A stretch of 64,000 nucleotides of DNA from Pseudohalocynthiibacter aestuariivivens (GTDB taxonomy: Bacteria; Pseudomonadota; Alphaproteobacteria; Rhodobacterales; Rhodobacteraceae), in contig NZ_JAGFNU010000002.1 of assembly GCF_018457175.1 (NCBI RefSeq), positions 310,001-374,000 of the forward strand, in the 5' to 3' direction. The notes beneath the pieces are model-generated. The model had not been told where the DNA came from and searched no databases. It saw only the letters and a program-made list of their open reading frames with translations. Below, piece by piece: positions 14,252 through 16,066 of the stretch; position 1 is the stretch's first letter, and the number at the start of each line of letters is the position of its first letter. Both the position numbers and the translations under genes were made by a program.

Positions 14252-14296
14252 TGGTCGGGACGGCAAGATTCGAACTTGCGACCTACGGTACCCAAA
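14252..14296. repeat. 45-bp direct repeat, copy of tRNA-Pro 3' part (distal attachment site)
   Basis: These 45 bases are identical to 15990-16034, the 3' part of the tRNA-Pro gene from CCA through the anticodon loop. After the last shared base the sequence diverges completely (GCCATAAG here, ACCGTCGC in the tRNA). This is the standard footprint of a tyrosine-recombinase element inserted at a tRNA 3' end: the intact gene is kept at one end and a fragment marks the other. Confidence 0.8.
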
Positions 14297-14730
14297 GCCA
14301 TAAGATTTCACTGAGTCGTAAAGACAAATTTGTAAACCTACACACTAAACGGGGGGTAACTATCAACAGCTTACGGGTTTTTTGTAAACCGAGTTACAAA
14401 ACAACCTTCATCCCAAAGCAAAACCATAGGTTGCATCCGAAGCGTTTTTACGTTTTTTGATGGATGCCCAATGACTCACTTTTGGAGATTACTCTTCCTT
14501 AAGGCAAAACAAAAGCAACATGGACAATCCTCCTGTCGCCCATGAATCACGTTGCCATAACGAATGGAGTTAACCATCACAATGTCCGCTTACCAGGGCG
14601 AACCAGTCATCCGACAAATACGGTCAGATGACCGCAACGAGCCCTTAGTGACCACCTCTCTTCTATGACCAATTGACATGAACCGATGATTTCTCAGAAG
14701 CTGTGACTTGAGCACAAAGGGAGATTTTCA

Positions 14731-15525
14731 ATGGAAACTACAGGCAATACCATAGGTATCATCGGTGGTTCAGGAATGCTCGGATCGACGATTTTGAGTG
14801 CACTTCTTGGAAGCGAGGCGTTTGAACAATCGAATTTCTGGGTTTCGAACAGAAGTGGCAATGCCTCTAACGTCGAACAAAGTTCAATCATTCACTTCAC
14901 AAAAGACAATCAGGAGTTGGTGGACGCCTGCGATGTCATCATTCTATGCGTTCCGCCTGCTCGATTTCCTGACATCGACATCCACGCAGCCAACAGGTTG
15001 GTAATTTCAGTTGTGGCCGGTGTGACGATTGATGAAATGAAATCCAAGACAGCATCTGTTCGTGTTGTACGGGCCATGAGCAGTCCTGCCGCTTCTTTGT
15101 CCATGGCGTATTCACCTTGGATAGCAAGCACAGAAATCGTGTCGGACGACAGAGATATCGTGAGGAAAATCTTTGGGGCGTGCGGGACAACGGATGAGAT
15201 TTTCGACGAGCAACAGCTCGATCACTTCACCGCAATGACTGGCCCGGTACCCGGTTTTGTCGCCTATTTTGCCCAATGCATGGTGGATCATGCCACAAGC
15301 CAAGGTATTGCACCTGATGTCGCGGACCGGGCCATTCGTCAACTTTTCGTTGCTGGCGGAACAATGTTAGCTGCCGACAGAGCCAGCCCTGCCGATCACG
15401 TTCGTTGGATGATTGAATATGCTGGGACAACTGCCGCTGGGCTAATTGCAATGGAGCGTTCAACCTTGTCCAAGACAATCAGTGATGGGCTTCTGGCAGC
15501 AGCAGACAAGGCAAGATCGATTTAG
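14731..15525 (+). CDS. pyrroline-5-carboxylate reductase-like NAD(P)-binding protein
   Basis: This 264-residue protein has an N-terminal Rossmann fold (IGIIGGSGMLGSTIL, residues 8-22) and a C-terminal helical domain like the P5CR dimerisation domain (MTGPVPGFVAYFAQ near 170-183, then FVAGGTML and YAGTTAAGLIAMER, matching the family's closing segment). A ribosome binding site (AGGGAG) precedes the ATG. It lies inside the tRNA-Pro element. It differs from canonical ProC at the dimer-domain start (MTGPVPGF rather than SGSGPAY), so it may act on another substrate; proline synthesis should not be assumed. Confidence 0.75.
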   Translation: METTGNTIGIIGGSGMLGSTILSALLGSEAFEQSNFWVSNRSGNASNVEQSSIIHFTKDNQELVDACDVIILCVPPARFPDIDIHAANRLVISVVAGVTIDEMKSKTASVRVVRAMSSPAASLSMAYSPWIASTEIVSDDRDIVRKIFGACGTTDEIFDEQQLDHFTAMTGPVPGFVAYFAQCMVDHATSQGIAPDVADRAIRQLFVAGGTMLAADRASPADHVRWMIEYAGTTAAGLIAMERSTLSKTISDGLLAAADKARSI

Positions 15526-15712
15526 CAGACTATGGCTATTTGAATTGGTGTTTTGGAATGCACCACAAACCATCGAATAATTTTCGAAGTCCACTTCGTC
15601 CGCAGTGCGGGCATTGCCCGGTACTCGGCCAACGTCTGCTACACTAAGAACATTCGTTGGGGTTACCGGCTATTTACAGGTTCAGAGCCAAGGATTCGCT
15701 TAGGAATTCGAC

Positions 15713-15940
15713 ATGATCACTGACGAGGAAAGGCGTCGCTGCATCACGGGAGAATATGCTGTGAGGAGAGGGAAACTCTACAGAGGTTCCCAGCCATCGA
15801 TCAAACTCAGCAAAGGGCGCAAACAAGACATCCTCATCAGTCAGATACGAGACAATCGAATCCTATATGAGGCTTCATCCAGACATGACAGATCGCTTTG
15901 GAGCCAAGATAGAACGGTTCGAAAAAACCGAAAACTGTAA
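15713..15940 (+). CDS. hypothetical 75-residue basic protein
   Basis: The ORF begins MITDEERRRCITGEYAVRRG and is rich in Arg and Lys throughout. TAGGA sits eight to nine bases before the ATG. It resembles no family I know. It lies inside the tRNA-Pro element, 50 bp from the tRNA. The high basic content could fit a nucleic-acid-binding protein, but this is only suggestive and it may not be expressed. Confidence 0.4.
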   Translation: MITDEERRRCITGEYAVRRGKLYRGSQPSIKLSKGRKQDILISQIRDNRILYEASSRHDRSLWSQDRTVRKNRKL

Positions 15941-15989
15941 ACCACACCACCTAAGGTAGAGTCGATGATAGCTAAGTTATTGGAATTTA

Positions 15990-16034
15990 TGGTCGGGACG
16001 GCAAGATTCGAACTTGCGACCTACGGTACCCAAA
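15990..16034. repeat. 45-bp direct repeat within tRNA-Pro (tRNA-side attachment site)
   Basis: Identical to 14252-14296. It spans the encoded CCA end, acceptor 3' strand, T arm, variable loop and anticodon 3' stem up to the anticodon loop. Ending a crossover region in the anticodon loop is typical for tRNA-targeting integrases. Confidence 0.8.
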
Positions 16035-16066
16035 ACCGTCGCGCTACCAGGCTGCGCTACGCCCCG
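15990..16066 (-). tRNA. tRNA-Pro (anticodon TGG)
   Basis: 77 bases including an encoded CCA. On the minus strand the acceptor 5' strand is CGGGGCG, pairing with CGTCCCG (one G-U). The D arm is GCGCAGCCTGGTAGCGC, the anticodon stem ACGGT/ACCGT encloses the loop TTTGGGT with anticodon TGG, and the T arm carries TTCGAAT. It is intact, and its 3' part is duplicated at 14252-14296. Confidence 0.95.

Follow-up and report, generated by a model that had tools for sequence, protein, structure and literature searches.

The tRNA-Pro(TGG) gene in the window, as we call the 64-kb stretch of DNA analysed here, borders a unit of 1,738 bp (core to core) that we read as a tRNA-integrated element reduced by internal deletion, with both attachment sites kept and a build like that of the CIMEs described in Streptococcus. 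We put the probability of this reading at roughly 0.8. Judging from their counterparts in related elements and viral contigs, the DNA sites that the unit has kept at exact spacing are probably those once used by the integration enzyme that it has lost.

Attachment site and gene content of the unit

The unit is bracketed by an exact 45-bp repeat, recognized in the original prediction and borne out by sequence comparison within the window: the distal copy (Table 1) is identical to bases 15990-16034 of the tRNA gene, and ungapped extension gives 98% identity over 48 positions. ARAGORN finds a single tRNA in the whole window and places its anticodon at position 35, so that the repeat, which starts at the encoded CCA and extends through the anticodon and two bases past it on the 5' side, reaches into the anticodon loop, as had been proposed. 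Exact identity over 45 bp at a distance of 1.7 kb, together with the register of the arm-type sites described below, rules out a chance origin of the repeat. A partial tRNA alone could arise by duplication, and the distal copy might then be an unrelated tRNA pseudogene, old enough to have nothing to do with the segment beside it, or the product of a segmental duplication. We consider this extremely improbable: the 45-bp identity ends within the anticodon loop, and arm-type sites placed from both copies fall in the register seen in viral contigs. The distal core, the TGG of which lies exactly 79 bp ahead of the first right-arm site, would instead be the original chromosomal 3' end of the tRNA gene, displaced by integration.

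Table 1. Coordinates in the window of the features of the tRNA-Pro(TGG) unit
Feature	Position	Strand	Details
Distal att core copy	14252..14296	-	Last 45 nt of tRNA-Pro(TGG), exact repeat
Right arm	14297..14389	+	TGTAAAC at 14331-14337 and 14383-14389; TTAC at 14371-14374, preceding the second site by 12 bp
Probable insertion-sequence end fragment	14502..14647		73% identity to L166 over 146 bp
Mobile cargo block	14636..15608	+	The P5CR-like gene with flanks of ~95 bp (upstream) and ~80 bp (downstream)
P5C-reductase-like protein, 264 aa	14731..15525	+	PF14748 and PF03807 above cut-off
Integrase fossil	15846..15959	+	37 codons and stop, against the left arm
Left-arm site TGTAAAC, offset -54	15936..15942	+	Within the fossil frame
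TAAGTTATTG adjoining the core	15973..15982	+	By alignment, TAAGTCATTG equally distant in G135 and G112
Intact tRNA-Pro(TGG)	15990..16066	-	ARAGORN; last 45 nt form the proximal core

The 1,693 bp between the repeat copies contain no integrase ORF, by the ORF list and by family search, and to this extent the original account of the interval stands; what it had overlooked is a C-terminal integrase fossil. Four ORFs of the element were searched, and the only one with a significant family match encodes the P5C-reductase-like (P5CR-like) protein. A 75-aa ORF (15713-15940), which overlaps the integrase fossil in a different frame, gave no match in the family searches. The unit is single-copy in the genome (44 contigs, 3.9 Mb), within a 401-kb contig, and the one other genomic match to it is 77% identical over 70 bp. 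Judging from gene content and from the named carriers of the cargo, the host is probably a Rhodobacterales-type bacterium. Next to the cargo block, on its upstream side, lies a probable fragment of an IS5-type insertion sequence, which may have helped to capture the block. The matching stretch of L166 covers the start of an ORF and sequence ahead of it, and the product of this ORF resembles an IS5-type transposase by eye.

Gene order around the tRNA in relatives

A search for relatives compared 61 genomes, of which 36 belong to the same family and to other genera, no genome of the window's genus being among those returned. Twenty of the 36, mostly with long contigs, were taken, with ~17.5 kb around the best tRNA match. 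None of these 20 stretches contains a second copy of the last 50 nt of its own tRNA-Pro. The nrdJ gene lies on the 3' side of the tRNA in 12 of them, with gaps of 393 to 2,812 bp (less than 1.3 kb in 11 of the 12), and the other eight have no nrdJ within the fetched stretch. These other genera match the single tRNA 3' end that the original prediction expected of relatives, and the outcome that it had named as telling against it, close relatives all sharing the segment and both copies, was not seen among these genera. In the window nrdJ lies 506 bp from position 14252, or 2,244 bp counting the unit. Compared with eight relatives and with G135, the one genome of its genus, the nrdJ-tRNA spacer of the window gives short matches only; the spacers thus align poorly across genera, and the empty site is defined by gene order, not base by base.

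Arm-type sites on both sides of the core

Read as a circle, the unit carries the heptamer TGTAAAC at -54, +79 and +131 from the start of the core and nowhere else on either strand. The two right-arm offsets equal those of viral contigs L093-L100 and of an element in G135, and the left-arm offset recurs in G135 and in an element of G112, becoming -55 in the viral contigs. Given the base composition of the unit, the chance of two prespecified heptamer positions matching is ~5e-9, and a pair of TGTAAAC sites spaced by 52 bp occurs once, in the unit, among the 822,210 positions of the window and the 20 relatives' loci (both strands). The TTAC lying 12 bp before the second right-arm site is common to the window, G135, G112 and six of the eight contigs L093-L100 (there at +119; L096 and L099 have TTAT). 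On the left side the unit has one of the two sites present in G112 and the viral contigs, and DNA alignment pairs its -54 site with the -66 site of G112, which implies that one left-arm repeat has been lost from the unit or was never present in it. All three heptamers and their spacing are exact, though much of the intervening sequence differs from G112. TGTAAAC very probably serves the integrase family as its arm-type site.

An integrase fossil at the left arm

The fossil frame reads YETIESYMRLHPDMTDRFGAKIERFEKTENCKPHHLR-stop, and 17 of its first 26 residues equal those of the C-terminus of the G112 integrase. The tblastn match has E=1.75e-8 in a database of two short elements only, and its alignment of 65 columns is weaker in the first half, with gaps and a stop. 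With 34 integrases as queries, only the G112 integrase (present twice) matched the fossil; the same search found no fossil in the G135 element. At the DNA level, 15872-15944 aligns to -132..-57 of G112, the end of the integrase region, and the fossil runs into the -54 site of the unit as the G112 integrase end runs into its own -66 site. A unit with no integrase gene that keeps approximately the last 37 codons of one at its left arm is most likely an internal-deletion derivative. The original prediction had offered either a heavily deleted remnant or a passenger mobilized in trans: the fossil favors the deletion origin, and mobilization in trans is compatible with the arms on both sides. These arms would be equally compatible with mobilization in cis by accretion, and are proof of neither.

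The integrase family is found in 55 of 394 family genomes at E<=1e-20. The same query finds no member in the genome of the window, and none of the 14 integrase loci of that genome resembles the family at E<=1e-4. Since the right-arm signature described below also occurs there only once, no resident helper is known.

Viral contigs and elements with the same sites

The exact 45-bp core is present in ten viral contigs, which fall into two groups of near-identical sequence around the core and so count as fewer than ten independent cases. No tRNA is detected by ARAGORN in any of the ten. In every one of them the core is preceded, at a distance of 153-713 bp, by the end of a tyrosine-integrase ORF (that of L098 is partial), and an integrase search of the viral contigs returned 15 loci, with all ten core-bearing contigs among them. 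Eight of the ten (L093-L100) carry TGTAAAC at -67, -55, +79 and +131, plus an inverted copy at +61; in L091 and L092 only the inverted copy is exact, with AGTAAAA and TGTAAAA at +79 and +131. Terminase and head-tail adaptor genes are additionally present in L095. When a pattern of two arms was required together with the Pro core, nine contigs matched, namely these eight and L168, which was set aside. The involvement of a tyrosine recombinase acting at the tRNA, originally proposed from the repeat, gains support from the repeat itself, from the viral contigs with core plus integrase and from the in-register arms. The Paracoccus phage vB_PyeM_Pyei1 (MK291445) likewise has an attachment site annotated in tRNA-Pro(TGG), and its integrase is 48% identical to that of L093; it differs from the unit in being a 50-kb phage with its own integrase.

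G135, from another genus, holds at the same tRNA-Pro a 2,564-bp unit with TGTAAAC at -54, +79 and +131 and CGTAAAC at -66, in which nothing matches the integrase family. The principal cargo gene of this unit encodes 616 aa; the protein contains an Mrr catalytic domain (PF04471, E=1.6e-29) and is recognized by the type IV restriction model of PADLOC (E=2e-61). A 77-aa ORF beside the restriction gene has no family match. G112 has at the same tRNA-Pro a prophage-type element with the same core, arms at -66, -54, +79 and +130, and CII-like, replication-initiator and HNH/terminase-like genes; what we presume to be its two ends are on different contigs. The C-terminus of its integrase is the one that matches the fossil, and the element differs from the unit in that this integrase is present. 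In G457 (L242/L246, G457:C26), a left-arm/core/right-arm site of the tRNA-Cys type, where no tRNA is detected by ARAGORN, comes after a 67% identical integrase match that covers 61 residues at the C-terminus. This site may be where two tandem elements join, or else an episomal attP.

The integrase family also occurs in contigs of ~11-13 kb with tRNA-Cys-type cores (L178, of 11.4 kb, L183, L191 and L201). The viral contig L178 encodes capsid, portal and terminase, and in this resembles capsid-forming satellites. A ~15-kb element with the same integrase family (L222, G111:C3:537000-556000) encodes a TrbL/VirB6 protein and has a relaxase match just below cut-off, which suggests that the family may also serve conjugation-type elements. 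Elsewhere, TIR-domain and KAP-NTPase genes, possibly for defence, lie inside elements of the same integrase family (L223, G069:C60; L158, G112:C118).

A right-arm signature across genomes

From the window, G135, G112 and L093 we drew the signature TGTAAAC-N31..35-TTAC-N8-TGTAAAC. Of 394 family genomes 7 contain it, as do 15 of 346 genomes sampled at the level of the order; the two sets overlap and together give 17 different genomes, and the reversed signature, used as a control, has zero matches in both sets. At all 17 places the 3' end of a tRNA, either tRNA-Pro or one that resembles tRNA-Cys, lies 77-79 bp before the first site; G000, G135 and G112 helped to build the signature, and the other 14 are independent. 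TCAR precedes TTAC in 16 of the 17, the exception being G135.

Every independent signature genome of the 394-genome set (G067, G331, G069 and G111) contains the integrase family (P=3e-4), as do all five once G112 is added (P=5e-5), where co-occurrence is counted per genome and involves different contigs in G067 and G112. Of 49 signature loci, 7 from genomes and 42 from viral contigs and many of them short or cut off, no more than 9 include an integrase match at E<=1e-5. By a rough pattern, a T-loop-like motif lies <=100 bp upstream in 23 of 48 viral signature contigs, and the remaining 25 are without it.

When 12 signature places were extended inward, four reached an intact tRNA and a second core within 20 kb. 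These complete units, of 10.1, 15.2, 18.1 and 19.0 kb, all hold a family integrase, and three of the four have left arms at -66 and -54. L234 (G422:C25:52400-72300) is an 18.1-kb tRNA-Pro element with the integrase at the end away from the tRNA and with left-arm sites at -123 and -111, not -66 and -54. A single-arm pattern matched nine of the 394 genomes (one with the reversed control), with a tRNA-Pro core recognizable by eye in G000, G135 and G112; the six other matches are likely due to chance. For two of these six, G164 and G181, longer stretches around the match contain neither a tRNA nor an integrase match.

Remnant or passenger

The deletion derivative might be dead, fixed in place and recombined by nothing, its arms surviving as the deletion is young; both arms and fossil could be young debris. 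To this we give slightly less than an even chance. The fossil is still in frame, no helper was found in the genome, and of the 17 signature genomes only that of the window and G135 have a unit of which both ends are visible and which lacks an integrase. Such a history is harder to reconcile with arm heptamers and spacing that remain exact amid sequence diverged from G112, and with the existence of viral contigs that have matching core and arms. Alternatively, the unit may be a passenger currently moved by the integrases of phages or islands, in trans or by accretion. This is what arms on both sides would provide for, and it is in keeping with G135, where a different genus has an integrase-less unit with the same arm offsets and different cargo, and with the tRNA-less site of G457, which reads like a tandem junction or episomal attP. 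Against this, neither an excision product nor a read across the empty site was seen as a direct sign of movement, and the whole unit was not found elsewhere, its outside matches being the tRNA and flanking genes, the 146-bp piece and the cargo block. Judged from sequence, a mobilized passenger likewise falls a little short of even odds, so that we weigh about equally a unit that is dead yet still in good condition and one that awaits a helper.

The cargo gene

The cargo protein matches P5CR_dimer (PF14748) with E=1e-17 and scores 146 bits against the TIGR00112 proC equivalog, for which the cut-off of 197 is not reached; on these profile matches we call it P5CR-like only, and not ProC. Its best solved structural relative is 2ahr (E=8e-19) and its next relative in the genome is 26% identical. 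A viral origin was considered and rejected: a pattern search of the viral contigs gave two pattern matches only and confirmed no close relative, and the sole PHROG match of the protein has E=0.03.

The block of ~0.97 kb that contains the gene recurs in six other places. Four genome contigs (L035-L038) match it at 89-94% identity over 935-972 bp and a Roseovarius pelagicus plasmid (L075) at 89% over 964 bp; the match in L153 (G078:C1, 8480-9196) is shortened, at 90.5% over 812 bp, and has an in-frame stop. These places share only the block with the window, and the neighboring genes differ where ORFs are listed. ARAGORN finds no tRNA around the block in the five of the six places that were scanned. 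Among the six stop-free copies, the window's included, dN/dS is 0.08-0.19, and between the gene of the window and the five others it is 0.12-0.19, indicating purifying selection on the gene. The recurrence of the block, and the lack of a tRNA in the five places scanned, would suit a history in which the block is itself the mobile unit and was inserted next to an existing duplication. That history leaves the repeat, the arms and the fossil unexplained, and we judge it improbable, although mobility of the block may still account for the entry of the cargo.

Discussion

Under the deletion-derivative reading, an element with a tyrosine integrase of the family, specific for tRNA 3' ends, would have integrated at tRNA-Pro(TGG); the tRNA would thereby have been restored and its old 3' end moved out to 14252, as the anatomy of the site and the relatives without the duplication suggest. 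It would have gained the P5CR-like block, known also in other surroundings, and then, in the order of events that we infer, internal deletion in one or more steps would have removed the integrase bar its last ~37 codons and everything else except the cargo and both arms. The remainder would be a non-autonomous element with core and arm-type sites in register at both ends. An incoming phage or island with a matching integrase could excise it, or an incoming element could integrate beside it and both could leave together, as described for CIMEs.

In the accounts of Streptococcus CIMEs on which we draw, these elements have lost their integration and transfer genes and kept attL and attR; classical CIMEs of S. 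salivarius are 1.2-13 kb long and carry cargo genes, and in S. agalactiae solitary or tandem CIMEs lie at the tRNA-Lys 3' end (PMC5704250, PMC7563491). The unit retains attL and attR in the form of core repeats and arms on both sides; of recombination genes it has no integrase ORF and only the C-terminal fossil, and transfer genes are likewise gone, the P5CR-like ORF being the only one of those searched with a significant family match. CIMEs derive by definition from ICEs or IMEs, whereas the parent of the unit may equally be a phage, a satellite or another island, because the integrase family occurs in several such elements: the prophage-type one of G112, the capsid-bearing 11-kb contig and the one with TrbL and a weak relaxase match. 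We accordingly describe the unit as apparently built like a CIME and claim no membership in the strict sense.

Phage satellites of the PICI-like kind are defined by their own integrase and by regulatory or packaging genes; there is no integrase, regulatory or packaging gene among the ORFs of the unit. An autonomous island or prophage would have an integrase gene in cis, and the unit has none. Tycheposons resemble the unit in integrating at tRNA ends and carrying cargo genes, but they carry a recombinase. The ssrA islands of Dehalococcoides, as far as the published account cited here goes, are like the unit islands with a repeated RNA-gene 3' end, some without an integration module, which their authors regard as possibly cis-mobilizable elements; they differ from it in their serine recombinase system and tandem arrays (PMC3146451). 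Among the literature matches listed for the heptamer and integrases, for cis-mobilizable elements of the order and for roseobacter tRNA-Pro/attP prophages, there is no account of this unit, which is weak evidence of absence.

What the window holds is a single gene parked at a tRNA together with the sites required for its renewed uptake by an integrase from outside. In draft genomes the signature, at its distance of 77-79 bp from a tRNA 3' end, points to the far end of the elements of one integrase family, and it also finds integrase-less elements, which integrase-based searches miss. We suggest tentatively, and with more doubt than belief, that this order harbors a recurrent and still mobile class of integrase-less mini-elements, reduced to phage-type attachment arms and one main cargo gene. 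If so, the window, with a metabolic cargo, and G135, with a restriction enzyme, would be two members of a class comparable to what MITEs are for transposases: gene cassettes that reach tRNA ends with the help of integrases of one family, borrowed from phages, satellites and islands.
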